A DNA stretch of 64,000 nucleotides from Acidobacteriota bacterium (lineage in GTDB: Bacteria; Acidobacteriota; Vicinamibacteria; Vicinamibacterales; CAVVIG01): NCBI GenBank assembly GCA_003222395.1, contig QHWB01000062.1, forward strand, positions 62,001 to 126,000, in the 5' to 3' direction. This document shows, in pieces, positions 5,565 through 63,283 of this stretch (the stretch's first letter is position 1; every line of letters begins with the position of its first letter). The notes under the pieces were generated by a model, which worked only from the letters and a program-made list of their open reading frames with translations, had not been told where the DNA came from and searched no databases. Made by a program: the position numbers and the translations under genes.

Positions 5565-5598
5565 CGCTCATCGATCGCGGCGTCGACTCGACCACCGT

Positions 5599-17445: not shown

Positions 17446-17520
17446 TTGCGACGAAGGCGGGACGGGCAGGAAAGGCGGGATGGTTGCGAGGCGCGAACGC
17501 GCCGAGCAACAGCGGCGGGG

Positions 17521-17558
17521 GTGGGGCCCCGGCGCAAGTTAGCAACGTGGGGCCCCAC
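17521..17558. repeat. GTGGGGCCCC inverted repeat in the nuoN-nuoA gap
   Basis: GTGGGGCCCC (17521-17530) is matched by GGGGCCCCAC (17549-17558), an 18-nt loop apart. The right arm is itself part of a 12-bp self-complementary block (17547-17558). There is no T run, so it is more likely a REP-like palindromic unit or an mRNA-processing hairpin than a terminator. It lies inside what appears to be a single operon. Confidence 0.6.
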
Positions 17559-17580
17559 GCGAGAGTGAGAGAAGTCAGTG

Positions 17581-17934
17581 ATGCATGAGTACCTCGGGAT
17601 AGTGGTCGCGTTCGTCCTCGCCGGAGGATTTGTTGCGGCAAACATCATCCTTGCATCGACGCTCGGCCCCAAAAAGCCGTCGGCCGTGAAATCGGAGCCG
17701 TTCGAGTGCGGGCAGGTTCCGTTCGCGCTGCCGATCGGCCATCTGTCGGTCAAGTTCTACCTGACCGCCATTCTCTTCATCCTGTTCGACGTCGAGCTCG
17801 TCTTCCTCTATCCGTGGGCCGTCGTGTATCGCACGCTGGGCGGATCGGGTCTCTTGGAGATGGTCATCTTCCTCGCGGTTCTGATGGTGGGCTTCTTCTA
17901 CGCCTGGGACAACGGCGCATTGGAGTGGCACTGA
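17581..17934 (+). CDS. nuoA: NADH-quinone oxidoreductase subunit A
   Basis: 117 aa from ATG 17581; a GTG directly before it (17578) would add one residue. Three TM helices. Family marks are [20 protein letters not shown] (the conserved EPYECG-type loop with cysteine, which in relatives sits beside the quinone site), [20 protein letters not shown] with the conserved Asp and Glu, and [20 protein letters not shown]. It ends one base before the nuoB start. It begins the peripheral-arm section of the operon after the antiporter genes, the reverse of the E. coli order. Confidence 0.95.
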
Positions 17935-17935
17935 C

Positions 17936-18457
17936 ATGTCTGGCGACGCGGGATTCGTAACCAGTCGGCTCGACGAAGCCGTCGGCTGGGCTCGCAAGTA
18001 CTCCATCTTTCAGTACCCGTTCGTGACGGCGTGCTGTGGCATGGAGTACATGGCGACGGCGTGCTCTCACTACGACATCGACCGCTTCGGCGCCGGCCTG
18101 CCGCGATTCTCGCCGCGACAGGCGGACGTGCTGTTCGTCGTCGGCACGATCAGTCAGAAGATGGCGCCGGTGCTGAAGCGGATCTACGACCAGATGGCCG
18201 AGCCGAAATGGGTCGTCTCGTTCGGCGTGTGCACCTGCACCGGCGGCTTCTACGACAACTACGCGACGCTCATGGGGATCGACACGATCATTCCAGTCGA
18301 CATCTACATTCCAGGTTGTCCTCCGCGGCCGGAATACGTGCTCGACGGATTGCTCAAGCTGCAGGCGAAGATCCAGGCGCAGCACGAGAGCGGGACGCGG
18401 CCGGCCCCCGAGCCGAGACCGGAGCTGGAGCTCGAGCCATGGATGCCGCAGCGCTGA
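17936..18457 (+). CDS. nuoB: NADH-quinone oxidoreductase subunit B
   Basis: 173 aa. It carries the N2 [4Fe-4S] cluster next to the quinone site; the ligands are the tandem Cys33-Cys34 ([12 protein letters not shown]), Cys99 ([12 protein letters not shown]) and Cys128 ([10 protein letters not shown]). The spacing of 65 and 29 residues matches that of E. coli NuoB. One oddity is the GVCTCTGG loop, with an extra cysteine where many homologues have Ala-Ser. The C-terminus adds a Pro/Glu-rich tail of about 25 residues. Its last 19 nt overlap the nuoC start. Confidence 0.96.
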
Positions 18458-46774: not shown

Positions 46775-46857
46775 GTCGGGCTCCTGCAGTTTGGTGACCA
46801 GAGAAATGTTGAAGCGCAACTCACCATAACGTGCTCGTCTCTGAAAGGATCTGCCTC

Positions 46858-47424
46858 GTGAGAAGCACCATCGTTTTCGTCGCGGCACTCGCGGCAGGCG
46901 CCACGGCACAGACGCCACCAGCCAACACGCTGACAAACGGCGCCCGCATGCACTACGGGATGATTAAGGGCTACGTGACGCGCGCCGCTGCGAAGATGCC
47001 GGAGGAGCACTACGGGTTCCGGCCGACGCCGGAAGTTCGTACCTTTGCACAATTGATCGGCCACCTTGCCGATGCGAACTACAGGCTCTGCTCCGTGCTG
47101 GCCGGCCAGGATCCCGCTACGGACGCCGGTATCGAAAAGAACAAGCAGGCGAAGCCCGATCTGATCAATGCGCTCGGGGATTCGTTCGCGTATTGCGATC
47201 AGCAGTACGCCGCGATGACCGACGCGGCGGGCACGCCGATCGTCAAGTTCGACGCAGGCGGCGAAGGGTCGCGCGTGCCGATTCAAATGCCACGATTGAC
47301 GGTTCTCGCGTTTCACACGGGACATGCGTTCGAGCACTACGGAAACATCGTGACCTACATGCGGCTGAAGGGCGTGGTGCCTCCGTCATCCGAGCCGCCG
47401 TTCGGGACGTACAAGCCGAAATGA
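46858..47424 (+). CDS. Secreted DinB-like four-helix-bundle protein
   Basis: 188 aa from GTG 46858, with AAAGGA about 9 nt upstream. This start gives a signal peptide (RSTIVFVAALAAGATA, QTPP). The DinB fold is supported by MHYGMIKGYVTRAAAKMPEE, FRPTPEVRTFAQLIGHLADA, LINALGDSFAYCDQQYAAMT and TVLAFHTGHAFEHYGNIVTY MRLKG. Three histidines placed as the metal triad are visible (GHLAD, FHTGHAFEHYG). Cytosolic DinB/YfiT relatives are thiol-dependent transferases or hydrolases; the secreted acidobacterial type is uncharacterised. Nothing near it suggests a substrate. Confidence 0.9.
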   Translation: MRSTIVFVAALAAGATAQTPPANTLTNGARMHYGMIKGYVTRAAAKMPEEHYGFRPTPEVRTFAQLIGHLADANYRLCSVLAGQDPATDAGIEKNKQAKPDLINALGDSFAYCDQQYAAMTDAAGTPIVKFDAGGEGSRVPIQMPRLTVLAFHTGHAFEHYGNIVTYMRLKGVVPPSSEPPFGTYKPK

Positions 47425-48444: not shown

Positions 48445-49113
48445 CTACTTGACCCTCCGACGAATTCGCTTTGTCTCAGGAACCTTGTCGGTGGCCCACA
48501 GGCGAACCGTCAGATCGACGGCGCCCACTTTGATCACGTCGCCGTCGGTCAGCGCGACTTCCGCGTGCACCGGAGCGCGCCGGAGAAACGTGCCGTTGGT
48601 ACTTCCCAAATCCGCGAGTGTGACACGCCGACTCGCGCTGTCGACTCGAATGCTCGCGTGGCGGCGCGAGACGCCGGGCGCATCCAGCCACACACTGCAT
48701 CGCGGATCTCGTCCGATGACGTTGTCGCCTTCCGAGAGCTGGCACGTCTTCGAGCCCCAGGCAACCCAGCAGAACAGCGGCTCAACTGCGGCACGCGCCG
48801 ACTGGACGTCGACCGCAGTGCCGCAGAACGCATATCCAACGCCATGGACGGTTCGGATGAAGATCGGCTCTTGCGCGCTGTCACCGATCGCCCGCCGGAT
48901 TTCGCCGATCAGGATATTGAGATTCGCGTCCACCACGTAGGTGTCGGGCCAGATTCGTGCGTGCAGGTCAGCCTTTTCCACCACCTTCGGCCGGCTCTCG
49001 ATCAGCGTGCACAGCAGATCGAACGCCTTCGGCGACAAGTGGATTTCGCTCCCGCCCCGAACGAGCTGCCGTGTGTCCGAATCGATGGTGAACTGGCCGA
49101 ATCGCACTCTCAC
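48445..49113 (-). CDS. Winged-helix (ToxR/OmpR-type) DNA-binding protein with FHA domain
   Basis: 222 aa from GTG 49113 (GAGGGG upstream). Residues ~1-95 are a Trans_reg_C winged helix: VRFGQFTIDSDTRQLVRGGS, EIHLSPKAFDLLCTLIESRP, ANLNILIGEIRRAIGDSAQE, IFIRTVHGVGYAFCG. Residues ~115-200 are an FHA phosphothreonine-binding domain: SEGDNVIGRDPRCSVWLDAP, GVSRRHASIRVDSASRRVTL, ADLGSTNGTFLRRAPV, with the conserved GR, SxxH and NG residues. A DNA-binding domain joined directly to an FHA domain suggests a transcription factor controlled by threonine phosphorylation. It is divergent from, and 195 nt from, the FHA/PP2C/kinase operon, the obvious partner and target. Confidence 0.92.
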   Translation of the reverse strand: MRVRFGQFTIDSDTRQLVRGGSEIHLSPKAFDLLCTLIESRPKVVEKADLHARIWPDTYVVDANLNILIGEIRRAIGDSAQEPIFIRTVHGVGYAFCGTAVDVQSARAAVEPLFCWVAWGSKTCQLSEGDNVIGRDPRCSVWLDAPGVSRRHASIRVDSASRRVTLADLGSTNGTFLRRAPVHAEVALTDGDVIKVGAVDLTVRLWATDKVPETKRIRRRVK

Positions 49114-49308
49114 GGTGCCCCTCGCCGCGACGACCCTGCAGAATCCTTCGAGTTTCCTTAAGACTTGACGGCCTGCGCCAGGCGATAGTGGTCGGCGTCG
49201 AAAGCAGCGAGCCGGGCGGAACCGGCCGGTGCGACCATCCGTCAACAAATCTTACCCGGAGCGGTTCAGATCTTGGGTACCCATCTCCCACTGTCGCCAG
49301 GTCCCGCC

Positions 49309-50181
49309 ATGGTCTCGCACAAAACTGAGTCCGCTGCGGCGCCGTCGCGACGCCACGCCCGCGACATCATCGACGCGGTCGTCGCGAATATGCGGAAGAA
49401 TCTCGAGCGTCTCAAGTACTCGACGCTCGCACCCAGCCGCTACACCGTGTATCTTCATCCCTCCGAGTTCGAGCGGCTGGAACCGATCATCCCGATTCTT
49501 CAGGAACAGACGATCCGCGCGCTCGACGAAGAGCTCCGCCATCTCAACGCGGCGTCGCCAGTCCATCGATGGATGCGCCGGGTCGTGGGTGAATCAGAAC
49601 CGGAGATTCGCAATGCCGCCGCCGACTGGTACGTCGGATTCGTGGCGGATCCCGATGGTGAGCTGAGTGAAGGGGATCTTCTCGTCGACTCCGAGCTGGT
49701 CATGCCGGCGAGACCGGATCTCGGTCTCGGTGAGCAGACCCGCAAAATTACGACCGTTCAATCCGGCCAACGCGCGACAACGCTGGAACACACCATCAGC
49801 CGCGCAACGTCTTCATCGACGCCGAGAGTTCTGGGCCGTATCGAATATGACGACGGGTCCGGTCATCATTTCTACGACGTGACCAAGGACTCGTTCACAA
49901 TCGGACGGGGTGGCATCGCCTATCCCGTCGACATCCGCATCGCCTCGTCCGCCGACGTCTCTCGTGAGCATGCCCGCATCCGCAGGGATCCGGCGACCGA
50001 TCGGTTCTTCCTGATCGATCTGAGCTCGCTTGGAACCACGTTGAACGGCCGCCACGTTCCCAAGGGGTACGACGAGGTGGACGGTACCAAGCGAGAGAAC
50101 GGATCCGAGACGCTGCTGCCGGACATCGCGAAGATAGGACTCGCCGACACGGTGTTTCTCGACTTCCGGAAGCGCCGATGA
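49309..50181 (+). CDS. FhaA-like FHA-domain protein (first)
   Basis: 290 aa from ATG 49309. Residues ~15-130 resemble the DUF3662/FhaA N-terminal domain: DAVVANMRKNLERLKYSTLA, PSRYTVYLHPSEFERLEPII, PILQEQTIRALDEELRHL. A Ser/Thr-rich linker follows, with possible kinase target threonines (GEQTRKITTVQSGQRATTLE). Residues ~190-288 are an FHA domain: DSFTIGRGGIAYPVDIRIAS, SADVSREHARIRRDPATDRF, FLIDLSSLGTTLNGRHVPKG. GR, SREH and the N-G pair are present. In mycobacteria FhaA links kinase signals to the cell-wall machinery. It is the first gene of the operon and overlaps the next small ORF by ATGA. Confidence 0.9.
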   Translation: MVSHKTESAAAPSRRHARDIIDAVVANMRKNLERLKYSTLAPSRYTVYLHPSEFERLEPIIPILQEQTIRALDEELRHLNAASPVHRWMRRVVGESEPEIRNAAADWYVGFVADPDGELSEGDLLVDSELVMPARPDLGLGEQTRKITTVQSGQRATTLEHTISRATSSSTPRVLGRIEYDDGSGHHFYDVTKDSFTIGRGGIAYPVDIRIASSADVSREHARIRRDPATDRFFLIDLSSLGTTLNGRHVPKGYDEVDGTKRENGSETLLPDIAKIGLADTVFLDFRKRR

Positions 50182-50282
50182 TCGCCCTGCTGCTGTCGGT
50201 TCGGCTCCTCTTTCTCATGGCGTGCGGCGTTCTCGTGGCGCTGTACCTGTGGATCGGTTACCGTTCACGCAAGGCGGAGTGA
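50178..50282 (+). CDS. 34-residue single-TM peptide in the FHA/PP2C/kinase operon
   Basis: A short ORF whose ATG overlaps the FHA-gene stop (ATGA) and whose TGA overlaps a GTG of the next frame. It encodes MIALLLSVRLLFLMACGVLV, ALYLWIGYRSRKAE: one hydrophobic helix of about 24 residues with a basic C-terminal end, expected inside the cytoplasm. The double overlap at both ends matches the operon's usual coupling, the main argument that it is real. No family is recognised. It may be a small subunit or adaptor of the kinase or SEDS-PBP complex (inference). Confidence 0.6.
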   Translation: MIALLLSVRLLFLMACGVLVALYLWIGYRSRKAE

Positions 50283-50290
50283 ATCAGTCG

Positions 50291-51979
50291 ATGCGGATAG
50301 CGAGCGCGCTCAGAGCCGCGGCCGACACCAACCCGGGCCTGCAGCGGGACGTCAACGAAGATCGCGTCCACGTCGACGTGTCGAGAGGCCTGTTCGTGGT
50401 CATCGACGGCGTCGGCGGCCACGCGGCCGGCGGAAAGGCCGCCGACATCGCGCTGACAATGGTGCGGGCGCGGCTGGAACGGGAGACGGGGTCGGTGGTC
50501 GATCGGGTGCGGGAAGCCATCGCGATCGCGAACAACGAGATCCATCGCGCTGCCGGGCTGCGGCCGGAGTGGAATGGCATGGCGTGCGTCCTCACGGTCG
50601 TGGTCGTGGACGAGACGCGCGCGGTTGTCGGCCACGTCGGCGACACGCGGCTGTACAAGCTGCGGGACGATCGCATCGACAAAATCACCCGCGATCACTC
50701 GCCGGTTGGCGAGCGCGAAGATTCCAACGAGCTCTCCGAGCTCGAGGCGATGCACCACCCGCGGCGCAACGAGGTGTATCGCGACGTCGGTTCGGACCCC
50801 CACCAGCCGGACGATGCGGACTTCATCGACGTGCGCGAGATTCCGTTCGAGCCGGATGCCGCGTTGCTTCTCTGCAGCGACGGCCTCACCGACCTGATCG
50901 ACTCGTCTGCGGTGCACGACGTCATCGACCGCTTTGCGGGCCAGCCCGATCAGGTGGTGAAGGAATTGATCGATGCCGCGAATGCCGCCGGCGGTAAAGA
51001 CAACATCAGCGTCGTGTACGTGGAAGGGGAGCGATTTGCCTCCGGCGATGGCAGGCCGGATCGTGCGGCGGCGGAAATCACGCGACGGCTCGGCACGAAT
51101 TCCGCCGCCGACCGTCCCGCGGTTGTCGAGACGCGGCAACCGGAAAAAGCTGCGCGAGGGCAGCGGACGAGAGCACGACGGGCCGTCACGCTTGCGGCGA
51201 TCGCGTTACTTGCGGCTGTGATCGCAACGGCGATCGTTCGTCTCTGGCCGAACGGCGCGCTGTTCCAGCGACGAGCGAGCGCGCCGCCCGCGGCGCATGC
51301 GGGAACCATCACCGTCGGGCCTACGGAATCGATTACCGCGGCAGTGCAGCGCGCCGGTCAGGGATCGGTCGTGCTCGTCGAGCCAGGCGAATACCGCGAG
51401 ACGCTGACTCTGAAAGACAACGTCCGGGTTGTCAGCCGCGTTCCAAGAGCAGCGACCATTAGGCTTTCCGGCACCGCGTCGGAAGCCGACGCCGCGGTCG
51501 TTGCCGCTGGAGTCACAGGCGCGGAGCTCGCCGGCTTCCGGATCGTCGGCGACGCGGCGACGCCGCTGGGCACGGGTGTCCTCGTCAGAGGCTCCGACGT
51601 GTCCATCGTGGACATCGAGGTCACCGGCGCCGTGAACGCCGCGTTCGCCATCGACGGGCTGTCGCTCGCCACGATCCTCGCGAGCGACATCCACGACAAC
51701 CCCGGCGCCGCGCTGGCCATCCGTTCGGCGTCGGCGAGAATTGCGCACAATGTCTTCGTGCGGAATGGCATGTCGGAGCGCGTCCGCCGATCTTTCATCA
51801 TCGACGAAGGGGCCGACCCGCGCTTCTCCGGAAACATCTTCCATGGAGTCGGCCACGACGCGTTCGGCGATCTGAGCGACGGCTCGCGCGCCGCGTTGGG
51901 CCGCGACAACTGGTTCGCCGAGGCTCAGGATTCCCGATCCACATCGTCAACCACGCCGCGCGTCCGCCGGGGGCGATGA
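50291..51979 (+). CDS. PP2C-type phosphatase fused via one TM to a beta-helix domain
   Basis: 562 aa from ATG 50291 (AAGGCGGAG about 12 nt upstream); GTG 50279 is an alternative. Residues ~1-245 are a PPM/PP2C phosphatase with the metal-binding acids in DVNEDR and VVIDGVGGHAAGGKAAD, plus VVGHVGDTRLYKLRDDRIDK, LLLCSDGLTDLI and AAGGKDNISVVYV, all needed for activity. A cytosolic linker leads to one TM (299-318). Outside, residues ~340-550 form a right-handed parallel beta-helix (SVVLVEPGEYRETLTLKDNV, GVLVRGSDVSIVDIEVTGAV, ASDIHDNPGAALAIRSASAR), like NosD/pectin-lyase folds that bind glycans. It would reverse the kinase's phosphorylation; the outer part may sense wall polymer. It overlaps the kinase start by ATGA. 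Confidence 0.93.
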   Translation: MRIASALRAAADTNPGLQRDVNEDRVHVDVSRGLFVVIDGVGGHAAGGKAADIALTMVRARLERETGSVVDRVREAIAIANNEIHRAAGLRPEWNGMACVLTVVVVDETRAVVGHVGDTRLYKLRDDRIDKITRDHSPVGEREDSNELSELEAMHHPRRNEVYRDVGSDPHQPDDADFIDVREIPFEPDAALLLCSDGLTDLIDSSAVHDVIDRFAGQPDQVVKELIDAANAAGGKDNISVVYVEGERFASGDGRPDRAAAEITRRLGTNSAADRPAVVETRQPEKAARGQRTRARRAVTLAAIALLAAVIATAIVRLWPNGALFQRRASAPPAAHAGTITVGPTESITAAVQRAGQGSVVLVEPGEYRETLTLKDNVRVVSRVPRAATIRLSGTASEADAAVVAAGVTGAELAGFRIVGDAATPLGTGVLVRGSDVSIVDIEVTGAVNAAFAIDGLSLATILASDIHDNPGAALAIRSASARIAHNVFVRNGMSERVRRSFIIDEGADPRFSGNIFHGVGHDAFGDLSDGSRAALGRDNWFAEAQDSRSTSSTTPRVRRGR

Positions 51980-54033
51980 TGACCACGGTTTTTCAGCGCG
52001 TTCGCGTGGGGCCGTACGAGATCGTCCACGAGATCGGGCGCGGCGGCATGGCTGTCGTGTTTTTCGCGACCGACAGTCGGGACGGCCGCCGCGTGGCGCT
52101 CAAGCTGGTGCCGACCGGAACGGACCGCGACGCGCAGGAAGTCCTCGAGGCGGAGCGTTGGGGGGCGAAGCTTCAGGAGCAGTTCTGTCGCATCAGCCAG
52201 AACGTGCCCGTCGTGTACGAGCACGGCACCGAGGGCGGATATTTCTACATCGCGATGGAGTACCTCGACGGGCGAAATCTCTCGGAGATCGTCGCCGGTG
52301 GCCCTCTGGCGCCCGACCGTGCGGTCGGCATCGCGATTCAGCTGTGTCATTTCCTCGAAGCGGCACACGGCTTCGAAGCGACGGTCGACGGCCGCAAGCT
52401 TCGCTCGCTACTGCACGGCGATTTGAAGCCGCGGAACATCCGCGTGCTGTGGGCCGACAAGATCAAGATCCTCGACTTTGGAATCGCCAAGGCGCTTTCG
52501 CTGAGCCGGAAGGTCACGCGCAACGACTTCGGCAGCATCACGTACTTGTCGCCCGAGCGGCTCGAGTCGGGCGAGATCGATACCTACTCGGACTTCTGGG
52601 CCGTCGGAGTGCTCTTGTACGAAATGGTCGGCGGCGTTCAGCCATTTCGGGCGCCGGACACGCGCCGACTCGAGCAGCGGATCAGATCGCTGCAACCTCC
52701 CGATCCCTTGGGGCCGCCATGTCCTCCGGCGTTGCAGGCCATCGTGGCCAAGCTCCTCGCGGGGCATCCCGCCGATCGATACGGCGATGCCCGCGCGATT
52801 CGCGAGGATCTCGAATGCCTCATGTCCGGACGCGTCACTCAGGCCGAACGTGAAGGATGGCCGGCCGGTGGAATGCAGCACGACGAGCCTCCGACGAGGC
52901 GCACGCAGCCGTCGGCGCAGATGGATGAGGAAGCGACGCGCCGAACATCCCGAGTCGAGACGGAATCGCAAACGACGGCGCCTTCGTCGGCGAACGTCAT
53001 CTTTCGGCCTCCCGAACCGCAGGCGACGAGGACGCAGAGCCGCGCAGGCCGCCGATATCTGCGAGCGGCGCTCCTTCTGCTCGCTCTGTCCATCATCGGA
53101 AACGAGCTGAGGGTTGCGTCGCGCGCGGAGCGACTCAAGGCGGAAGTGCCGACGGTCGAGCTCGACGGCATCGGTCGGCTCTGGGACGGATACCACGCGC
53201 TCACCGCGCGAAGCCTCAGAGTCGGCAGCGCGGGCCTGGAGCGTGCGCTGACGAATCAGACCGCCATGCTGGCGGACCGCATCATCGGAAACTATCGAAC
53301 GCCGGTCCCCAGCGTGCGGGAGACTCAGTGGAAGATGGCCCGCGAGGCGCTCGCGCAGGCGCTGGCGGTCAATCCGAACGACCGTCAGCTGAAGGGCGCC
53401 TTGCGATACTGCGACGGTCACCTTCACCGGATCAACGGCGAGGCACGGAAGACGCACAAGCAGAACGCGGAGGCGCAGCACGAATTCACCGACGCGGTCT
53501 CCGCATTCCGCGAGGCAGCCGAGCTCCGTCCTGACTGGCCCGATCCGTTTCTCGGCCTCATGCGAACGTTCATCTACGGCCTCGAAGACGTCGACCGCGG
53601 CGCCGATGCGTTGAAGCAGGCGCAGCGCCTCGGGTACACGGCAGGGGATCGCGAGACCGTGCAGCTGGCCGACGGATATCGTTCCCGTGCAACGGCCTTC
53701 GCGCGCACGGCGCGGACGCTGAGTGGCATGGCGGTGGAACAGGAATACCTCACGCGGGCGACGGAAGCGTATCGGCAGGCCATCGATCTGTATTCGAAGG
53801 TGCTCGGGTACGCGGACGCTCCGCGCAGCCTGCGGGCCGCGCAGCGCGGGCTCGAACAAGTGGAGCAGCGGAGGGTCGAGTTGTCGGGCGCCTCGGTTCG
53901 ACCACCGTCACCGCAGGCGGTTCGACCGGCGTCACCGCAGGCGGTTCAACCAATCTCACCGCAGGCGCGAAGCTCCTCGCCTTTTCAATCGCCGGTTGGA
54001 GTGTCGCCGCGTTTCCACGGGCTGGCGCCATGA
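51976..54033 (+). CDS. Transmembrane Ser/Thr protein kinase with extracytoplasmic repeat domain
   Basis: 685 aa. Kinase domain residues ~10-285: Gly loop GRGGMAVVF (21-29), catalytic Lys43, HGDLKPRN (147-154; the usual HRD Arg is Gly, so a non-RD kinase), DFG 167-169, then a GSITYLSPE activation-segment end. A Thr-rich juxtamembrane part follows (PPTRRTQPS, EEATRRTSRVETESQTT), then one TM (about 361-377). The outer region (~390-640) is helical with TPR-like segments (AREALAQALAVNPNDRQLKG, AVSAFREAAELRPDWPDPFL, LTRATEAYRQAIDLYSKVLG) and ends in three SPQAV repeats. It overlaps the phosphatase and SEDS-PBP genes by 4 nt each. It likely phosphorylates FHA-binding threonines in the operon's proteins. 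Confidence 0.94.
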   Translation: MMTTVFQRVRVGPYEIVHEIGRGGMAVVFFATDSRDGRRVALKLVPTGTDRDAQEVLEAERWGAKLQEQFCRISQNVPVVYEHGTEGGYFYIAMEYLDGRNLSEIVAGGPLAPDRAVGIAIQLCHFLEAAHGFEATVDGRKLRSLLHGDLKPRNIRVLWADKIKILDFGIAKALSLSRKVTRNDFGSITYLSPERLESGEIDTYSDFWAVGVLLYEMVGGVQPFRAPDTRRLEQRIRSLQPPDPLGPPCPPALQAIVAKLLAGHPADRYGDARAIREDLECLMSGRVTQAEREGWPAGGMQHDEPPTRRTQPSAQMDEEATRRTSRVETESQTTAPSSANVIFRPPEPQATRTQSRAGRRYLRAALLLLALSIIGNELRVASRAERLKAEVPTVELDGIGRLWDGYHALTARSLRVGSAGLERALTNQTAMLADRIIGNYRTPVPSVRETQWKMAREALAQALAVNPNDRQLKGALRYCDGHLHRINGEARKTHKQNAEAQHEFTDAVSAFREAAELRPDWPDPFLGLMRTFIYGLEDVDRGADALKQAQRLGYTAGDRETVQLADGYRSRATAFARTARTLSGMAVEQEYLTRATEAYRQAIDLYSKVLGYADAPRSLRAAQRGLEQVEQRRVELSGASVRPPSPQAVRPASPQAVQPISPQARSSSPFQSPVGVSPRFHGLAP
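53896..53967 (+). repeat. Three 24-nt tandem repeats near the kinase 3' end
   Basis: Units at 53896-53919, 53920-53943 and 53944-53967 share a CACCGCAGGCGGTT core and encode the Pro-rich series RPPSPQAV, RPASPQAV, QPISPQA in the periplasmic tail of the kinase. Similar Pro-rich tails contact peptidoglycan or span the wall. Confidence 0.85.
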
Positions 54034-57000
54034 CCGTGACCTACACGGCCGCCACCGAACGGGACGGGCGACGAACGCAGCACTGGACGGATCGATTCGA
54101 TCTCTCAGCGATCTCGATGGCGGCAACGTCGTGCGTCGCGATCCTGGCGATTGCGCTGGCCTATGCGGGACGCACGAGCGTCTTCGACAGCTCGGAGCGC
54201 GCGGCCGCCGCCGTTCGGCCGATCAACTTGAACACGGTGGCCGACGCCGCACCGCTCGAAGCTGCGATGGAGACGGTCTTTTCCGACGTGAACGATCGGC
54301 GTCTGGCGGCGCAGCAGCTGTTTCGATTCCTCGTCGACGAACGACAGCAGAAGCGCCCGCTGCCGAATGTGGGCGCGATCGCGCCGCTGTTCGGTACAGC
54401 GGTCCTTGCGAAACTGAAACCGTTTCTCAGCGTTCGAACGCGCGGAGAGTTCCGGCGCCAGGTGTTGCTGTTCACGTGTATCTACATTCTGGCCTTTCAT
54501 GTCGCGATGCTCGTGTGGCGGCTGCGCGGCATCCGAACCGATCCGCTGCTGGTCGCGGTCGCGCATCTGCTGACGGCGATCGGTTTTGCCGTCCTCCTCA
54601 GTCGCGCCGATCCGTTGCGCGACAGCCTGACGTTCGTCCGCTTCGCGGAAGGCGCGGTCATCGGTCTCGTGGTGATGACGGCCGTGTCGCTCGTCGACTT
54701 CGGCGCCGCGGGGTTCGTGAAGCTGAGTTACTTGCCGCTCATCGTCGCGTTGTCTCTGTCGGCGCTGCTGATCCTTTTCGGTTCCGGTCCGGGAACGAGC
54801 AGCGCGAAGGTCAATCTGGGCCCGGTGCAGCCGATTGAAGCGATCCGTTTGCTGCTCGCGCTGTTTCTCGCAGGCCTCTTCGCCCGCCGATGGGAATTGC
54901 TCAGGGAGCTCCACAGCTCGGCGCTCCGGAATTCGCGATGGACGCGATGGGTCAACTTGCCGCGCGGTGAGTACGTCTTGCCGGTCCTGGCCGGCGTGGG
55001 CCTGGCGCTCGTCTTCTTCTTTCTTCAGAAAGATCTGGGTCCGGCCCTGTTTCTCTGCTGCGTCTTTCTCGCCACGTACGTCGTCGCGCGCGGCCGCGTG
55101 GGGATGGCGATCGCCGGCCTGGCGCTGTTGATTCTCGGTTTCTATGCCGGGTATCACCTGCACATCTCGCAGACGCTCGCAGAGCGCGTCCGCATGTGGC
55201 AGTCGCCGTGGGACAACGCAGTTCTCGGCGGCGATCAGGTGACGCACGCCGTCTGGGGCCTGGCGACGGGCGGATCGTTTGGAACCGGTCTCGGTCTCGG
55301 TGATACCCGCTATCTACCGGCCGGCCACACGGATCTCATCCTCGCTGCGATAGGAGAGGAGCTTGGCGCCGCAGGGCTGATGCTCGTTGCCGTCTTGTAC
55401 GCGATTCTCGCGTGGCGCGGCATTCGCATCGGACGGCTGGCGCGGAACGACTACGGCTTTTTCCTCGCCACGGCTCTCACGCTGTTCCTGATCGTACCCG
55501 CGTTGATCATGGCGTCGGGCATCCTTGGGGTGACGCCGCTCACGGGCGTCGTGACGCCGTTTCTGAGCTACGGCGGGTCGGCGATGGTCGCGAACTTCTG
55601 CGCGCTGGGAATGCTGGCGGCGATCCACGCCGACCGCCACCCTTCGGGCGATTTCGAGCCGTTCCGCATCCCGATCGCGTGGGTCGGGGCCTCGCTCGGT
55701 CTCGTTGCGCTGGTTCTTCTTGCCGTGGCGATCGACATACAGATCGTCCATGCCGACGACTACGTCATCAGGCCTCATCTCGGCACTCAAGCCGACGGAG
55801 GACGACGGTTCGAATACAACCCGCGCGTGCTGGACCTCGTCCGGCTCATGCCGCGCGGAACCATCTACGATCGCCAGGGTGTGCCGTTGGCCACTGACGA
55901 TCCAAAGGTGATCGCAGTCGCGCGACAGGCGTACGCGAAGCTCGGCGTGTCGCTGACCGAAGCATGTCCGATCTCCGGCGAACGATGCTATCCGCTCGGC
56001 GGCGCGGCGTTCCATCTGCTCGGAGACGCGCGAACGCGCATGAACTGGAGCGCGCCCAACTCGTCGTACATCGAGCGCGATGCTGAAAATCAGCTGCGTG
56101 GCTTCGACGACCATGCGGAAGCCATTCAGACGACGGATTCGGCCGGCAGACCGATGCTGACGATTCGGCGCGATTACCGCGACGTCATCCCTGCGCTGCG
56201 ACATCGCCACGATCAGACCAACGCGGCGTTCGCTCGATTCCGGAGCCCGCACGATGTGCGCCTGACGATCGACGCGAACCTGCAGCTTCGCGTTGCCGCC
56301 ATCGTCGCAGCGTACGCGCAGAAGATGGCAGGCAAAGCGGCTGCGGTCGTGCTCGATCCGGATACGGGCGAACTGCTGGCCAGCGCCAGCTATCCGTGGC
56401 CGGCGTCGTCAGCGGCATTCCGACCGGAAGGCGGGACCGACGTGCTGTTGGACCGCGCGCGCTACGGATTGTACCCGCCGGGATCCACGTTCAAGCTGGT
56501 GACGGCCTCGGCGGCGCTCCGTCAGCATGTCGATCCGCGCAGAACGACGTTCACGTGCGCGCGGCTGCCCGATGGGCGGGTCGGCGCGAAAATCAACGGC
56601 TGGAATCGACCGATCCGCGACGACGTGTTGGACGCGCACCCGCACGGGACGATCGACGTGCACGACGGCTTCGTGCATTCCTGCAACGCATTCTTCGCGC
56701 AGCTCGCGGTCAAGGTCGGATCGCAGCCGCTTCTCGACGCCGCCAATCGACTGGGGATTTCGCTGACGCCGGCGCCGGACGTCGTTGCGCGTGTGCGCCA
56801 GACGCTTCCACAGATCGGTTATGGGCAGGGGGATGTGGTCGCGACGCCGCTGAGGATGGCTCGTGTGGCTGCAGCCGTCGCGTCGAACGGGGTCCTGCGC
56901 GAGACGCGCTGCGATCAGGAGGAAGCTGCGGGCGGAGCAACCGAGCGGTTCCTGAACGGCAACGACGCACGCGTGCTCGCCGGCTACATGCGCGATGTGG

Positions 57001-57245
57001 TCCTCAGCGGCACAGGCCGCGTACTACGGAACCATCCCGGACGAATTGCGGGCAAAACCGGAACGGCGCAACTCGATGGCCGACCTTCTCACGGCTGGTT
57101 CGTCGGCTTCGCGCCCTTCGGTCCCGCAACCCGCCGGATTGCCTTTGCCGTGCTCATCGAGAACGCCGGATACGGAGGAGGCAGCGCGGCTCCCGCTGCC
57201 GGAGAGATCGTCAGCGCTGCCGCCCTCGCCGGGCTGATGAAATGA
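54030..57245 (+). CDS. SEDS (RodA/FtsW) glycosyltransferase fused to a class B penicillin-binding protein
   Basis: 1071 aa; overlaps the kinase stop by ATGA. One TM near 30-47, then residues ~145-535 are a SEDS polymerase: SAKVNLGPVQPIEAIRLLLA, FLQKDLGPALFL with the key Asp335, AGHTDLILAAIGEELGAAGL and LTGVVTPFLSYGGSAMVANF. One further TM (~550-570) leads to an outer part. Residues ~590-730 form a reduced pedestal (MPRGTIYDRQGVPLATDD), and ~740-1070 a transpeptidase with all three motifs: SxxK at 819-822 (PPGSTFKL), SxN at 884-886 (HSCNAFF) and KTG at 1009-1011 (GKTGTAQ). It should polymerise lipid II and cross-link strands in one chain. Normally RodA/PBP2 or FtsW/FtsI are separate proteins. 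Confidence 0.94.
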   Translation: MTVTYTAATERDGRRTQHWTDRFDLSAISMAATSCVAILAIALAYAGRTSVFDSSERAAAAVRPINLNTVADAAPLEAAMETVFSDVNDRRLAAQQLFRFLVDERQQKRPLPNVGAIAPLFGTAVLAKLKPFLSVRTRGEFRRQVLLFTCIYILAFHVAMLVWRLRGIRTDPLLVAVAHLLTAIGFAVLLSRADPLRDSLTFVRFAEGAVIGLVVMTAVSLVDFGAAGFVKLSYLPLIVALSLSALLILFGSGPGTSSAKVNLGPVQPIEAIRLLLALFLAGLFARRWELLRELHSSALRNSRWTRWVNLPRGEYVLPVLAGVGLALVFFFLQKDLGPALFLCCVFLATYVVARGRVGMAIAGLALLILGFYAGYHLHISQTLAERVRMWQSPWDNAVLGGDQVTHAVWGLATGGSFGTGLGLGDTRYLPAGHTDLILAAIGEELGAAGLMLVAVLYAILAWRGIRIGRLARNDYGFFLATALTLFLIVPALIMASGILGVTPLTGVVTPFLSYGGSAMVANFCALGMLAAIHADRHPSGDFEPFRIPIAWVGASLGLVALVLLAVAIDIQIVHADDYVIRPHLGTQADGGRRFEYNPRVLDLVRLMPRGTIYDRQGVPLATDDPKVIAVARQAYAKLGVSLTEACPISGERCYPLGGAAFHLLGDARTRMNWSAPNSSYIERDAENQLRGFDDHAEAIQTTDSAGRPMLTIRRDYRDVIPALRHRHDQTNAAFARFRSPHDVRLTIDANLQLRVAAIVAAYAQKMAGKAAAVVLDPDTGELLASASYPWPASSAAFRPEGGTDVLLDRARYGLYPPGSTFKLVTASAALRQHVDPRRTTFTCARLPDGRVGAKINGWNRPIRDDVLDAHPHGTIDVHDGFVHSCNAFFAQLAVKVGSQPLLDAANRLGISLTPAPDVVARVRQTLPQIGYGQGDVVATPLRMARVAAAVASNGVLRETRCDQEEAAGGATERFLNGNDARVLAGYMRDVVLSGTGRVLRNHPGRIAGKTGTAQLDGRPSHGWFVGFAPFGPATRRIAFAVLIENAGYGGGSAAPAAGEIVSAAALAGLMK

Positions 57246-57251
57246 ACTGAC

Positions 57252-58076
57252 ATGGATCTTCTGGGAAAAGCTCGAAGGCTCGAATCGACGATCGCCGCAA
57301 GGCTCGACGAGGCCGCGAGGGGGCTCGTCCGATCGCGCCCGCGTGAGCCGCTCGAGATCGTTCATGCGATTCTCGATGCACTCGACCAGGAGATCGAGCC
57401 AACCGGCCGCGGGACGCGCGTGTTTCCGTTCAACCGAATCGAGATCTCGGTTGTGGCGCCATCGCCCGAGGCACGCGGGCGGCTCGAAGCCGTGTTCGAA
57501 GGCGACACGCCTCTGCGGACGAGGATCGTCGAGCGGCTGCAGTCGGCCGGATGCTCGCCGACGGAGGTCGCCGTCGCGATCCATTACGTCGATCGCGCAG
57601 AGGCGAACTGGCGCGCGCCGGAATTCGATCTGCAGTTCGCGCGCGTCGCGGAGCCGGACGTCGAGAATCCGGAGCACGACTCGAAACCGGCCCGGATCGA
57701 AATCACAGCGCTGCGCGGCGTGACCGAACGGTGGACGTATTCACTCGCCGCCGCGCGCATCGATCTGGGCCGGTGCACGGAAGTGCGGGACAGCCGTAAC
57801 AGACTCATCAGAACCAATCACGTCGTCTTCACCGAAGGGTCGGCCGACGTCAACCAGACCGTTTCCAGACAGCATGCGCATATTACGTACGAGCCGAGCA
57901 CCGGCCACTTCCGATTGCACGACGACGGCAGCGGACACGGGACGGAGATCGTGCGCGAGGGCAGAACCATTTCGGTGCCACGAGGGTCGCGCGGCGTCCG
58001 TCTTCAATCGGCAGATGAGATTGTTCTCGGTGAGGCGCGATTGCGAATCAAATTTCCGAGAGATGGAGATCGGTAG
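57252..58076 (+). CDS. FhaA-like FHA-domain protein (second)
   Basis: 274 aa, 6 nt after the SEDS-PBP gene. Residues ~1-125 resemble the DUF3662/FhaA N-terminal domain (LVRSRPREPLEIVHAILDAL, TRVFPFNRIEISVVAPSPEA). The C-terminal ~120 residues are an FHA domain: AARIDLGRCTEVRDSRNRLI, VNQTVSRQHAHITYEPSTGH, FRLHDDGSGHGTEIVREGRT. The SRQH core is present, but the usual N-G after the strand reads GSGHGTEI, so phosphothreonine binding may differ. It closes the operon; the desaturase gene converges on it 86 nt on. Two FhaA-like proteins flanking the set suggests scaffolding at both ends (inference). Confidence 0.9.
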   Translation: MDLLGKARRLESTIAARLDEAARGLVRSRPREPLEIVHAILDALDQEIEPTGRGTRVFPFNRIEISVVAPSPEARGRLEAVFEGDTPLRTRIVERLQSAGCSPTEVAVAIHYVDRAEANWRAPEFDLQFARVAEPDVENPEHDSKPARIEITALRGVTERWTYSLAAARIDLGRCTEVRDSRNRLIRTNHVVFTEGSADVNQTVSRQHAHITYEPSTGHFRLHDDGSGHGTEIVREGRTISVPRGSRGVRLQSADEIVLGEARLRIKFPRDGDR

Positions 58077-58162: not shown

Positions 58163-59221
58163 CTACAGCCTGCTCCGGCGGGAGCGGCGGACGAGGTCGC
58201 GCAGGAGCGGCGAGAACCCGCGCTCGACGGTCGCCCGGTACGGCGCGTCGCCGCCGAGCGTGGCCACCAGCCGGCGGTGGGCACGGCCGAGATTGTGGTA
58301 CGGCAGCGACGGAATCCAGTGGTGGAGCGCGTGGAAGCGCAATCCGAGCGGCGCCACCAGCGTGTGGCCGATGATGAGCATCCTCCGTCCCCTGCCGCCG
58401 TCGATCGTGCACGAGTCAACCAGCTGATCGATCATTCTCAACTCGCCCTCGTCGCGGTCGTATCGATGTGCCGCGAGCGTTCGCACGGCGTTCACGCCTG
58501 ACGCAACGGCGACCGTTGCAGCCCAGCATGCGAAGGCCGACGTCGGCAGATGGCCGTTCCACCACAACGACACCCCCATCCATACCACGGCGCACGCAGC
58601 GGCTTCTTCAACGCGGCCTGCGGCGGAGATTGGCGCGCGCCTCACGAAGCGGGGGTTGATGGCGAGCGCAGAGGCTCGCTCGCGAACCATGCGTCCGAGC
58701 GGCGGCACGATCCACGAAACCGGTGCAAGCACGCCAAACCGCACGGCCAGCGCGAGCGGCGCCAGCAGCGAGGCGCCGAGCGAGATGAGGATGAGGATAG
58801 GGCGGCGGCGTCCGTACGGAAAGTACTCGGGGTCCGCTTCAGTGCCGTAAGAGCGTTGCCGATGATGCTCGGTGTGCACGCCTTCGTAGAGGAATGCCGG
58901 AATCAGCAGCGGCACGCCGACGAGCGCACTGCACGCAAGCCTGAACCACGGCACGTCGCGTCGAGCCAGGTGCGTGAGCTCGTGGATGAACAGGACAGCG
59001 CGGTACAACGCGAGCATCGCGACCGCGAGGAACGCCGCGCGGTCCAGCGCGGATCGCGCGGCAACGGCCCATGCAAACGCCGCCCAGCCGATCGTCGCCG
59101 CGGCCAGCAGATCGGTCCAATAGATGGCGCGCGACGGCCGGAACCACTCGATCGGCAGCGCGTGGATCGCCTCGTCGATCGCGGAGATACGCCTCGACCC
59201 GGTTGCAAGGGACGACGACAC
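58163..59221 (-). CDS. Membrane fatty acid desaturase
   Basis: 352 aa from GTG 59221; the N-terminus is uncertain. A di-iron desaturase/hydroxylase with three His boxes: HELTH (RAVLFIHELTHLARRDVPWF), HTEHH (YEGVHTEHHRQRSYGTEADP) and HALHH (LGLRFHALHHWIPSLPYHNL), plus an extra AAHRYDRDE site. Six TM helices are visible (for example TDLLAAATIGWAAFAWAVAA, SLGASLLAPLALAVRFGVLA). The EADPEYFPYG stretch after box 2 is common in acyl-lipid or sphingolipid-type desaturases of soil bacteria. It would introduce a double bond or hydroxyl into membrane lipids with an external electron donor. The substrate is unknown. It stands alone. Confidence 0.92.
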   Translation of the reverse strand: MSSSLATGSRRISAIDEAIHALPIEWFRPSRAIYWTDLLAAATIGWAAFAWAVAARSALDRAAFLAVAMLALYRAVLFIHELTHLARRDVPWFRLACSALVGVPLLIPAFLYEGVHTEHHRQRSYGTEADPEYFPYGRRRPILILISLGASLLAPLALAVRFGVLAPVSWIVPPLGRMVRERASALAINPRFVRRAPISAAGRVEEAAACAVVWMGVSLWWNGHLPTSAFACWAATVAVASGVNAVRTLAAHRYDRDEGELRMIDQLVDSCTIDGGRGRRMLIIGHTLVAPLGLRFHALHHWIPSLPYHNLGRAHRRLVATLGGDAPYRATVERGFSPLLRDLVRRSRRSRL

Positions 59222-59812: not shown

Positions 59813-60466
59813 ATGGGATCACTGACAAGAACCGGTTGCATAGTGGTTGGGGGTCTGCTGGGTGTGTCCGCAATAGTGCAGGCGGATCCGGTTGTTCTGA
59901 GGCCAGTGTCATTCCTCGAGATTGTCGATGAGGCGCCGATTGATGGCAGATTTCTTCGGGACGCGGTCGCCCAGAATGTAGCGCTTGGACCCAGCGCGGA
60001 GACACGCGTGTTCTACCAGTTCGCGCTGCCGGCCCTGCGCTCGGCTTTGCCGACGACGTTGTTCTTTTCTGTGAAGAGGGGCAGCGATGTGTTCAGTGAA
60101 TGCGCGTCGCTGAGCCCGTGTCCGGATTTGACGCGCGTCAACATCTTCGGTTACGCAGGCACTGGATCGATCACTCTCGCCGACTACAACGCCGGCTCAC
60201 TCCTAGGGTCGGTCACCAGGATTCCTGAGCGGGGTGGAACCATCAGCCTGGACGTGACAAATTTCATTTCCGGCCTGTTGTCGGCAAACAGCGACTTTGG
60301 CGGCGTCGTGCTGCGGCCCGGTTCGCTTGGTGCTTTGGAGTTCACCGATGCGCAAATCGCAGCCACTCCGGAACCGGGTTCGCTGACCCTTCTGACGCTC
60401 GCCGGCTTCGCGGCCGCGGCACGAAAGCGGGCGAGGCGTGCCGGCGCCAGGTCAGTACTGCACTGA
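59813..60466 (+). CDS. PEP-CTERM sorting-domain protein with DNRLRE-like mature domain
   Basis: 217 aa, ATG preceded by AGGAG. A signal peptide (MGSLTRTGCIVVGGLLGVSA, IVQAD) precedes a beta-rich domain (VFYQFALPALRSALPTTLFF, TLADYNAGSLLGSVTRIP, TISLDVTNFISGLLSANSDF, GGVVLRPGSLGALEFTDAQI), with a layout like the DNRLRE or jelly-roll domains found in exosortase substrates. The C-terminus is the sorting signal: ATPEPGSLTLLTLAGFAAAA then a basic RKRARRAGARS. One Cys pair (ECASLSPCPD) may form a disulfide. It should be exported and processed by an exosortase encoded elsewhere. Function of the mature protein unknown. Confidence 0.93.
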   Translation: MGSLTRTGCIVVGGLLGVSAIVQADPVVLRPVSFLEIVDEAPIDGRFLRDAVAQNVALGPSAETRVFYQFALPALRSALPTTLFFSVKRGSDVFSECASLSPCPDLTRVNIFGYAGTGSITLADYNAGSLLGSVTRIPERGGTISLDVTNFISGLLSANSDFGGVVLRPGSLGALEFTDAQIAATPEPGSLTLLTLAGFAAAARKRARRAGARSVLH

Positions 60467-60544: not shown

Positions 60545-63283
60545 TCAGAAGCTCATGTTGATTCCCGCGTCAATTTTTCGCATGCCGCCGACCGTTGTCG
60601 GTCTGCCAAAGAATGGCGACGTCATCGTGCCGCTGTAGCCGAGATAATTCCTTTCGTTCGTGAGATTCTGCGCCTGCACGAAGAGCTGCAAGCGATACCG
60701 CGCCGTACCTTGATCGACGGTGCGCACCTGCGCTGCGCCGCCGCTCCCGAAGACGCCGATGCCGGGCGGCAACCCGGTCGTGTGGCCGAACGCGAAGACG
60801 TAACCCACCATCGCATTGATCGTCGTTTGCCCGCTCGCGCGCAGCGTGTTACGTCCCACGCCCGTCGGCCGGTCGTTGAAAATCCCATCGCCGTTGTCAT
60901 CGCGTCCCGTCAGGAGCGTGTAGGGAGGGGCGGTGCTGCTGTTGAGATTGATCGCGACGAGGACGTTCCGAATCACCTGGTTGTTCACGGCAAGATTCAG
61001 GCGGCTCCGGATGTCCGTGGCGACGACGCCGCCGCCGAACACGAAGACGCCTGGCACTCCGATTCCCGGTCCGCCCGAGACGCCGCCGGCGGCGGGCCCC
61101 CACTCGGTCGCGAGCCGTCCGGTCGGCGCAATGCTGAACGGACCGTCGGTGTTGTTCAGTAGAGACGCCAGCGTGTAGTTGGCGAACACGGTGATGCGCT
61201 TGAAGCTCACTCGAGGACCCTTGGACAGCGGCAGCAGCGCGCCGGGATTGATGCTGGCGTCGAGCTGCAGCTGGTGCTGCCGCGACGCTGCGTCGGACAC
61301 GACCTCGATGATGGACGCGAACGCCGGATCCGGCCTGGCGCCGTCGATCGGCGCGTTCAGATTCACGCCGCGAGCCAGACGCGATCCGCGCAGGTAGCTG
61401 TACGTCAGCGCGACACGCGTCACTTTCCAGACCCCCTGATCGACGCCGCCACTGATCCGCGTGATCCGCGGGGCGCTGTATGCGCCGCCGAGCACGTACC
61501 GATTGATCGGGACGATCACGCCGCTGGTCCCGGGATCCGGAAACGATGGATCGACGATGTTGATTTCCTGCTGGTGAAAGCCATCGACGCGCAACGCCTG
61601 ATCGTAGGCGCTGGTGGGCAGCCAATCGTAGAAGATGCCGGCGCTGCCGCGTAACGTGGTCTGGCCGCCCGCCAACGGCGCCCACGTCGCGCCGAACCGC
61701 GGGCCGATATTCGCGTAGTTCCCGACGTGCGTCTGAAGCTCGTAGCGGACGCCTGGCGTGAGCGTGAGGTTCTTGCGCACGCGAATGTCGTCCTGAACGT
61801 AGATCCCGCCCTGCACGTTGTCGTAGGCGATGGCCGGATCGCCGATGCGCCGCGTGTAGTTGCTCGGCTGATCCGTCTCGTACGCCTGAAGGTTGGTGAA
61901 CGTGAAGGTGCCGAGGTAATTCGCTCTCGTGTCCGACCGATACCAGGTGCTGTCGAACACGAAGCCGGTGCGGATCGAATGACGGCCACGCACGTAATCG
62001 AGGTCGGACGCGATGTCCAGCGTCCTGGCGTGATCGCCGCCCGCCCGCTGCGCGCCGCCGCTGTTGAACGCGTCGAGCACGCGAATCGTCGGCATCTCGT
62101 TCGCCGACTGCGCGTCGGCGTCCGACCACAACAGCTGCACGCGCGAACGCGAGAACGCGCGGCGTCCGACCGGACCGAAGTGCTGGGCGCGCACGGTATG
62201 AACCACGTTCCCGGTCGCGTACGCGCGCTCGGGTTCGTCGTACCCGCCGACGCCGAGATTGTCGTTCGACACACGGGTGAGGTTGTAGCCGAACCGGACC
62301 GTCTGATCGAGTGTGAGCGCGTAATCGAGTTGACCGTTCACGAAGATGTTGTCGCGTGGCGCTTTCAGGCTCAGCGCGTGTGAGAGCGTTCCACCGGGGA
62401 CGGCGGCATTCAAGTTCGGCGTCTCGTACGAGCTCGTGCCGAAGACGACCATGCCGAACGAGCTCTTGTCCTTGACCAGGGCGCCGTTCATGCCGAAGCC
62501 GTAGTTGACGTTCTGTTCCGGCCCTTTGACCGGCACGAACGGGCTCCGTCCGCTCAACGACCCGTCCCGGACGAGCACGGTCGAAAAATAGCGAATCGGC
62601 CCGACGCCGGGCTGCGTGATGATCTCGATCGCGACGCCGCCGGCGCTGTGGTATTCGGCGGCGAACTGATCGCGCGCGATGCGAATCGATCGAATCATCG
62701 CTTTGGCCGGCAACGCTCCGCCTTCGAAACCGTCGATGCGGATCACCGCACCGGGACCCGCCATGTCCTGGAGCTGCTGCTGCAGGATCGACGGGTCGTC
62801 CGAGAGCGCCTCGATCTGCTCGCGCGTCAGGGTCGTACCAAACGACGGGCCGTTCCGGTCGGCGGCCGCCTGCTGTTTGTCCTGTTCCACGGTGACCGCC
62901 GTCTGGACGCGCTCGATCGTCAGCACGGCGACCTGCCTGTTCTCGCCGTTCCGCACGCGGACATCAGTCAGCAACCGTTTTTCGAATCCGGGAAACTCGA
63001 CTTGAACGGTATATCGGCCCGGTGTGAGCGCCGCGACGATTGCCACACCCGTGTCCGACGTGCGCACCGGCGCGATCGCCGCGGTTTTCGTCGCTTCATC
63101 TGCCGCCGCGACGGTGACGGTCGCGCCGACGATGACCGCGCCGGTCTGATCCACGACGGTAACGCGCAGCGATCCGCCGGAAGCGGGCTGGGCGAAGAGG
63201 TTCGCGCCGGAGAGATTCAGCGTCGCTCCAGCGATCAGAATCACGAGCAGCTTGCGCAAGGCCGCAAACACGTCGTCGCTCAT
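60545..63283 (-). CDS. TonB-dependent receptor with carboxypeptidase-regulatory-like domain
   Basis: 912 aa. An unusual start: MSDDVFAALRKLLVILIAGA, TLNLSGANLFAQP, a long signal peptide with an acidic N-terminus. Residues ~37-125 are the regulatory-like domain (GSLRVTVVDQTGAVIVGATV, LTPGRYTVQVEFPGFEKRLL). A short plug follows (FGTTLTREQIEALSDDPSIL, QQQLQDMAGPGAVIRIDGFE, IRIARDQFAAEYHSAGGVAI) and then a barrel ending KIDAGINMSF. The plug contains the 'ALSDDPxxLQQQLQxMAGP' phrase, a subgroup feature I recall from Acidobacteria. Its ATG overlaps the stop of the upstream gene, so the two are translationally coupled. The substrate is unknown. Confidence 0.93.
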   Translation of the reverse strand: MSDDVFAALRKLLVILIAGATLNLSGANLFAQPASGGSLRVTVVDQTGAVIVGATVTVAAADEATKTAAIAPVRTSDTGVAIVAALTPGRYTVQVEFPGFEKRLLTDVRVRNGENRQVAVLTIERVQTAVTVEQDKQQAAADRNGPSFGTTLTREQIEALSDDPSILQQQLQDMAGPGAVIRIDGFEGGALPAKAMIRSIRIARDQFAAEYHSAGGVAIEIITQPGVGPIRYFSTVLVRDGSLSGRSPFVPVKGPEQNVNYGFGMNGALVKDKSSFGMVVFGTSSYETPNLNAAVPGGTLSHALSLKAPRDNIFVNGQLDYALTLDQTVRFGYNLTRVSNDNLGVGGYDEPERAYATGNVVHTVRAQHFGPVGRRAFSRSRVQLLWSDADAQSANEMPTIRVLDAFNSGGAQRAGGDHARTLDIASDLDYVRGRHSIRTGFVFDSTWYRSDTRANYLGTFTFTNLQAYETDQPSNYTRRIGDPAIAYDNVQGGIYVQDDIRVRKNLTLTPGVRYELQTHVGNYANIGPRFGATWAPLAGGQTTLRGSAGIFYDWLPTSAYDQALRVDGFHQQEINIVDPSFPDPGTSGVIVPINRYVLGGAYSAPRITRISGGVDQGVWKVTRVALTYSYLRGSRLARGVNLNAPIDGARPDPAFASIIEVVSDAASRQHQLQLDASINPGALLPLSKGPRVSFKRITVFANYTLASLLNNTDGPFSIAPTGRLATEWGPAAGGVSGGPGIGVPGVFVFGGGVVATDIRSRLNLAVNNQVIRNVLVAINLNSSTAPPYTLLTGRDDNGDGIFNDRPTGVGRNTLRASGQTTINAMVGYVFAFGHTTGLPPGIGVFGSGGAAQVRTVDQGTARYRLQLFVQAQNLTNERNYLGYSGTMTSPFFGRPTTVGGMRKIDAGINMSF

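Follow-up and report, generated by a model that had tools for sequence, protein, structure and literature searches.

A conserved operon of Acidobacteriota combining FhaA-type proteins, a kinase, and a phosphatase with a fused SEDS-PBP: a candidate module for phospho-regulated peptidoglycan synthesis

The present study concerns a 64,000-nucleotide stretch (hereafter, the window; contig C117:62001-126000, GenBank QHWB01000062.1) of the 7.7-Mb genome of an Acidobacteriota bacterium (GCA_003222395.1), and within it an operon in which genes for Ser/Thr phospho-signalling adjoin a gene that fuses a SEDS polymerase to a class B penicillin-binding protein (PBP). An earlier note, prepared from the sequence alone, had recognized this operon, and every part that it named, namely six genes and a 34-aa peptide, was confirmed by the list of open reading frames (ORFs) and by Pfam. 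A winged-helix/FHA regulator is transcribed divergently from fhaA1, which is followed by the peptide, a PP2C phosphatase with a transmembrane (TM) segment and a beta-helix, a kinase with a TM segment and a TPR-like domain, the SEDS-PBP fusion, and fhaA2. The note described nearly all of the junctions as 4-nt overlaps, which holds for three of the five (ATGA at 50178/50181, 51976/51979, and 54030/54033), but not for the peptide-PP2C junction, a gap of 8 nt with a PP2C start (ATG 50291) that is backed by relatives, or for the fusion-fhaA2 junction, a gap of 6 nt.

The order fhaA1-PP2C(+beta-helix)-kinase(+TPR-like)-SEDS-PBP-fhaA2 on one strand recurred in the domain maps of about 25 fetched Acidobacteriota loci, the proteins of which are roughly 30-70% identical; the remaining window-type loci are mostly interrupted by contig ends. 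These conserved-order loci span several families, classes, and named groups of metagenome-assembled genomes (MAGs), including MAGs labelled Bryobacterales, Solibacteraceae, Terriglobia, and Thermoanaerobaculum. The synteny rejects a chance clustering of the genes and agrees with the self-contained operon that was proposed, rather than with the scattered, non-conserved neighbours that would have spoken against it. A search with the 1071-aa fusion found it in 7 of 40 relatives, among which carrier genomes are larger (median 6.5 vs 4.3 Mb, p 0.005, kinship being ignored in the statistic). The fusion is present in 28 of 162 genomes of the window's order. Across 396 genomes of the phylum, 12 gave matches, of which 10 carry the window type and two a related type.

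Several loci deviate from this order. In locus L058, the module is reordered, its kinase neighbours belong to a different type, and it is flanked by two kinases that carry fused FGE-sulfatase domains (5510-7342 and 16370-18034). An orphan fusion (L066:9416-13279, the same as L237:8374-12237) lacks signalling genes (FHA, kinase, PP2C) over about 8 kb of upstream sequence, and keeps the SEDS motif HTD with its transpeptidase residues lost (SSFG, no SCN or KTG). In three loci of the same family (L230, L231, and L233), the module is complete and the transpeptidase active site is preserved. The fusion of L050 (2-3223) likewise retains HTD and has lost its transpeptidase residues (AGFD/VTG); fhaA2 is missing downstream, and the upstream side lies off the contig.

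The fusion gene of the window (54030..57245, plus strand) encodes 1071 aa, with a SEDS domain at about 54549-55634 (FTSW_RODA_SPOVE, 4e-49) and a transpeptidase domain at about 56340-57212 (Transpeptidase, 3e-35), and the catalytic motifs of both are intact (HTDLILA in SEDS; STFK, SCNA, and KTGTAQ in the transpeptidase). The protein begins with a cytoplasmic N-tail motif, MTVTYT (54030..54047, plus strand), which takes the form MxVTR[ST] in 14 loci of distant lineages. Through its N-terminal extension (54030-54540), which varies in length among relatives, the SEDS part gains an additional TM segment and a stretch predicted to be external.

In both domain trees, window-type fusions grouped as a single clade (SEDS, 100/99; transpeptidase, 100/100), separate from the Acidobacteriota housekeeping proteins FtsW/FtsI and RodA/PBP2, those of the window genome included; both trees reject an origin of the fusion by recent duplication of this genome's mrd or dcw synthase. 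Nearest to them in the SEDS tree are the fusions of L059, L060, and L105 together with a Chthonomonas fusion, a neighbourhood with which the transpeptidase tree is compatible (88/88, which is not strong). Since the branching within the clade mostly tracks taxonomy, old descent with many losses is suggested. Housekeeping FtsW/FtsI and RodA/PBP2 are also present in each carrier genome that was checked, and the fused SEDS-PBP is, therefore, a third, accessory synthase.

The phosphatase gene (50291..51979, plus strand) encodes a PstP-like PP2C of 562 aa (Pfam PP2C and a weak beta-helix match), with a TM segment at 51158-51244 and a right-handed beta-helix at 51305-51844. Among 19 relatives, Pfam identified PP2C in all, DUF1565 in 13, and Beta_helix in 11, and the metal ligands are conserved in the alignment. 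The AlphaFold2 (AF2) model had a pLDDT of 83, with the beta-helix mostly above 90, and its best match in the PDB was M. tuberculosis PstP (1txo). The kinase gene (51976..54033, plus strand; Pfam Pkinase and a weak TPR match) encodes 685 aa comprising a non-RD Ser/Thr kinase domain, a Thr-rich juxtamembrane linker, a TM segment, and an alpha-solenoid/TPR-like domain. All 20 kinase sequences share Lys43, Glu60, His147, Asp149, Lys151, and the DFG motif, and in none of them is the residue between His and Asp an Arg (HGD, HAD, or HND), whereas most canonical-locus kinases are HRD and some are HCD, HQD, or HLD. In the AF2 model (pLDDT 81), the best solved match of the kinase domain was M. tuberculosis PknB (Z 30, 29% identity), and because the comparison of the model matched kinase domains only, the TPR-like domain is without a structural assignment. 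PASTA was not among the Pfam families listed for the 20 kinases. Each of the two proteins is predicted to cross the membrane once and to expose its C-terminal domain on the outside. The PASTA-free kinase and the phosphatase with a beta-helix-like external part, as previously described for the window, were recovered in its relatives.

Kinase Thr307 (codon 52894..52896, plus strand), a proposed site of autophosphorylation and FHA docking, is Thr in 18 of the 20 sequences and usually lies in a TRRT motif, of which there tend to be two copies, in the window DEPPTRRT and then DEEATRRT. Window-type kinases form one clade in the kinase tree except for that of L074, the placement of which, with a long-branch row, is unsure. 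The module kinase of L052 (genome G009) groups with sequences of the family f15 type; this genome belongs to family f1, and its module may, therefore, reflect transfer or mis-binning.

Regarding fhaA1 (49309..50181, plus strand; Pfam FhaA_N at 26 bits, cut-off 25, and FHA), ATG 49309 is the likely start, and from TTG 49273, the start used for residue numbers here, the product would have 302 aa. FhaA_N and FHA were each found in 17/17 homologues, and the N-domain aligned with that of canonical FhaA in hhalign (P 97.8%, E 1e-12). The fhaA2 gene (57252..58076, plus strand; Pfam FHA) encodes a second FhaA-like protein with a divergent FHA domain; FHA was detected in 22/22 homologues, and the N-domain again matched canonical FhaA (P 96%, E 3.5e-9; controls under 1%). 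The description of two FhaA-like proteins is accordingly substantiated, by Pfam for FhaA1 and by hhalign for both. In the phosphothreonine pocket, FhaA1 retains Arg, Ser, and His; FhaA2 retains Arg and His, its Ser is frequently replaced by Gly or Ala, and it has lost the Asn contact. Thr156 (codon 49738..49740, plus strand), a proposed phospho-acceptor, is the sole invariant column of the FhaA1 linker (residues 141-208; 17/17), and its context, mostly T-[RKQ]-[RI], is similar to that of kinase Thr307. In Terriglobia, too, FhaA proteins conserve a Thr-containing motif (e.g. EATIVRPR) immediately N-terminal to FHA. The SEDS-PBP linker (about HADRHPSGDFEPFRIP), which the earlier note had named as a possible partner of the FHA domains, is short and contains no Thr; FhaA1 Thr156, the juxtamembrane TRRT motifs of the kinase, and the synthase N-tail MxVTR[ST] are better candidate phospho-sites.

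The 34-aa single-TM microprotein (50178..50282, plus strand) occupies the slot of fhaB. Of about 27 loci, 22 have in this slot a TM ORF of 29-45 aa that takes up the space between fhaA1 and PP2C, in nearly every case with a 4-nt overlap at the fhaA1 stop. No such ORF is present in L047, L063, L074, or L232, and in L058, fhaA1 runs directly into PP2C. At the window-type loci, the slot holds only this microprotein, and an FhaB with an FHA domain was not encountered there. The group pattern L-x-x-R-x-x-F-L resembles that of FhaB anchors, and the group aligned with the FhaB anchor in hhalign at P 28% and E 6e-4, control TM groups (n=28) reaching at most 0.85%. Scores against a hidden Markov model of the FhaB anchor exceeded those of controls (p 5e-8), with individual scores below 8 bits and the window's own microprotein at the control level. 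These similarities are suggestive of an FHA-less FhaB membrane anchor.

The divergent regulator (48445..49113, minus strand; Pfam Trans_reg_C 2e-17, FHA 3.7e-19) is EmbR-like, with an OmpR-type winged helix and FHA, and Pfam detected no BTAD domain in it. Its start is probably GTG 49113, the position at which homologues begin (MRVRFG or VKVRFA), and TTG 49248, as previously given, is possible. Within the window's order, several families have the regulator beside the module; the Bryobacterales/Solibacteraceae loci lack it there. The divergent intergenic region (49114..49308) is presumed from the gene layout to be a shared regulatory region; sigma-70-like promoter scores in it were at the chance level, and the promoter/terminator scan returned nothing above chance. 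The flanks contain genes for a DinB-family protein (46831-47424, plus strand), a fatty-acid desaturase (58163-59221, minus strand), a PEP-CTERM-like protein with a score just below the cut-off (59813-60466, plus strand), and an outer-membrane beta-barrel with a carboxypeptidase-regulatory domain (60545-63283, minus strand).

With moderate confidence, we regard this operon as an accessory module of Acidobacteriota for peptidoglycan synthesis under phospho-control, operating in the manner of the FhaA-PstP-RodA-PbpA-PknB system of actinobacteria and clostridia. The sequences provide an intact kinase and PP2C, two FhaA-type proteins, a catalytically intact SEDS-class B PBP, a TM microprotein, and their gene order, from which we infer all of the functional steps; phospho-control of the synthase is plausible on these grounds. 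The external TPR-like domain of the kinase and the beta-helix of the phosphatase, which probably binds glycan, would read the state of the envelope. The kinase may phosphorylate FhaA1 Thr156, its own TRRT motifs, and possibly the synthase N-tail; FHA domains would bind these sites, such that FhaA1 and FhaA2 are recruited to, or released from, the fused synthase, thereby gating it on or off. PP2C would erase the phosphorylation and reset the switch, the microprotein would act as an FHA-less FhaB anchor, and the regulator, where present, may add phospho-dependent control of transcription.

This proposal is supported by the conserved order, the FhaA_N domains of both FHA proteins, and PstP and PknB as the best solved structural matches, as well as by the occurrence of the same parts in canonical loci elsewhere among the phyla and the separation of the fusion clade from FtsW/FtsI and RodA/PBP2. 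The invariance of Thr156, its resemblance to Thr307, and the Terriglobia Thr motif point in the same direction, as does the loss of transpeptidase residues in the orphan L066/L237 with their retention in full loci of that family. In mycobacteria, FhaA, PstP, and the fhaA-pstP-rodA-pbpA-pknB-type locus control wall growth (PMC11898655, PMC6554272), which also favours it. Several observations weigh on the other side: the N-tail motif is replaced in the clade of families f4/f15; TRRT is altered in the kinase linkers of L049-L054, L074, and L076; many FhaA2 members lack some canonical phosphothreonine contacts; the topology of the kinase and PP2C is deduced from one predicted TM segment each; and the module is dispensable at the phylum level because it is absent from most Acidobacteriota. 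We advance more tentatively, and with clear doubt, a more specific form of the proposal, a third dedicated wall machine in which the phosphatase, through a beta-helix that reads glycan, and the kinase, through its TPR-like domain, have taken over the sensing otherwise done by kinase PASTA repeats. A GarA-like switch in FhaA1, at Thr156, would then act on the one-chain SEDS-PBP, and FhaB would be cut down to an anchor microprotein.

The accessory distribution, the larger genomes of carriers, the housekeeping synthases beside the module, and the dedicated regulator in the window's order would also suit a stage-specific wall synthase for a cyst, septum, or stress programme, similar to SpoVE-SpoVD, in which the kinase and FHA proteins mainly time expression or localization rather than activity. 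However, no developmental genes adjoin the module in the flanks scanned, and we consider this explanation unlikely. Bacterial Ser/Thr kinases are often pleiotropic, and the kinase, phosphatase, and FHA proteins may serve other cellular targets and merely be co-transcribed with the synthase; this is improbable given that the same association occurs in several phyla and in several rearranged orders, and that the absence of signalling genes and the loss of transpeptidase residues coincide in one orphan lineage. Loci of the type VI secretion system (T6SS) also pair a kinase, PP2C, and FHA, and PppA is among the top PP2C fold matches, but the acquisition of a peptidoglycan synthase by a PpkA-PppA-Fha-type threonine phosphorylation pathway is highly improbable, with no T6SS family among the ten flanking ORFs scanned, FhaA_N domains present, and SEDS-PBP beside signalling genes in every intact locus.

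The control of wall synthesis by FhaA, PstP, and a kinase has been known chiefly from mycobacteria; an accessory phospho-regulated synthase module would extend it to a diderm phylum and suggest that the sensors of such a module are exchangeable. The natural one-chain SEDS-PBP represents a tool for studying cross-talk between the two wall-synthase enzymes, the ligand and role of FhaA become directly testable on purified non-pathogen proteins through the single invariant linker Thr of FhaA1 and the T-R-R motifs, and the FHA-less microprotein suggests that the membrane anchor of FhaB may have a role of its own.

The resemblance to fhaA-fhaB-pstP-rodA-pbpA-pknB on which the earlier note was based stands: this is a conserved operon of Ser/Thr phospho-signalling and peptidoglycan synthesis with FhaA N-domains in both FHA proteins. 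The parallel is not specifically actinobacterial, since fhaA-fhaB-PP2C-SEDS-PBP-kinase loci occur in Clostridia, Actinomycetota, and Ca. Oleimmundimicrobium. Negativicutes have a canonical locus in which no fhaB was detected, and abridged forms exist in Chloroflexota, Armatimonadota, and Poribacteria. Nor, contrary to the note, do Actinobacteria lack a fused synthase: three canonical loci of Actinomycetota (L086:9812-12553, L090:9866-12634, and L109:9890-12667, the last from Thermoleophilia) carry, like the window, a single-chain SEDS-PBP beside fhaA, PP2C, and a kinase, although their FhaB keeps FHA. Because these fusions sit elsewhere in the SEDS tree, they probably arose independently, and a SEDS-PBP fusion as such is not new.

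Two further arrangements were found in Acidobacteriota, both with FhaA, PP2C, SEDS, PBP, and mostly a kinase clustered in other gene orders. The first, found via FhaA_N (matches in 38 of 297 genomes), has split genes in the order FHA-PBP-SEDS-PP2C-kinase-FHA; loci L179-L187, L191-L193, and L196, which include the Terriglobia variant (L179-L182, L184, and partial loci), contain FHA, PBP, SEDS, PP2C, a kinase, and FhaA; their kinases are of the HRD type, and a Thr motif precedes the FHA domain. The second is fused (L059, L060, and L105). Neither the Terriglobia variant nor these fused loci matched the profiles of the window-type beta-helix or TPR-like domains.

EmbR combines an OmpR-type winged helix, BTAD, and FHA, and the regulator of the module shares the first and last of these without BTAD. 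FhaA1 resembles the GarA/OdhI phospho-switch in its candidate kinase-target Thr N-terminal to FHA and differs in its additional FhaA_N domain. Mycobacterial FhaA binds MviN and affects polar wall synthesis (PMC11898655), and a pknB-fhaA link in a subset of Firmicutes has already been published (PMC6554272). Our literature search, limited to the open PMC library, found no publication on this module, which agrees with the note's "undescribed system" without proving it; however, the canonical locus in other phyla and the fused SEDS-PBP of Actinomycetota make it a variant of the known FhaA/PstP/kinase/SEDS-PBP locus rather than an undescribed kind. Like the actinobacterial and clostridial locus, it is a tight operon with FhaA of the same N-terminal domain, a PstP-type PP2C with a TM segment, SEDS and a class B PBP, a TM Ser/Thr kinase, and a TM protein in the fhaB slot. 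It differs in that SEDS and PBP are fused, canonical RodA and PbpA being separate neighbouring genes; the kinase is non-RD and PASTA-free with an external TPR-like domain; PP2C has an external beta-helix; FhaB is reduced to a TM microprotein; and a second FhaA stands at the end, in the order PP2C-kinase-SEDS-PBP-fhaA2, with the kinase ahead of the synthase, rather than pstP-rodA-pbpA-pknB. It is, moreover, accessory, in a diderm phylum with its own RodA/PBP2. Taken together, the module is a Gram-negative relative of the wall-growth locus of tuberculosis bacteria, in which the sensors have been swapped and the two synthase enzymes fused.

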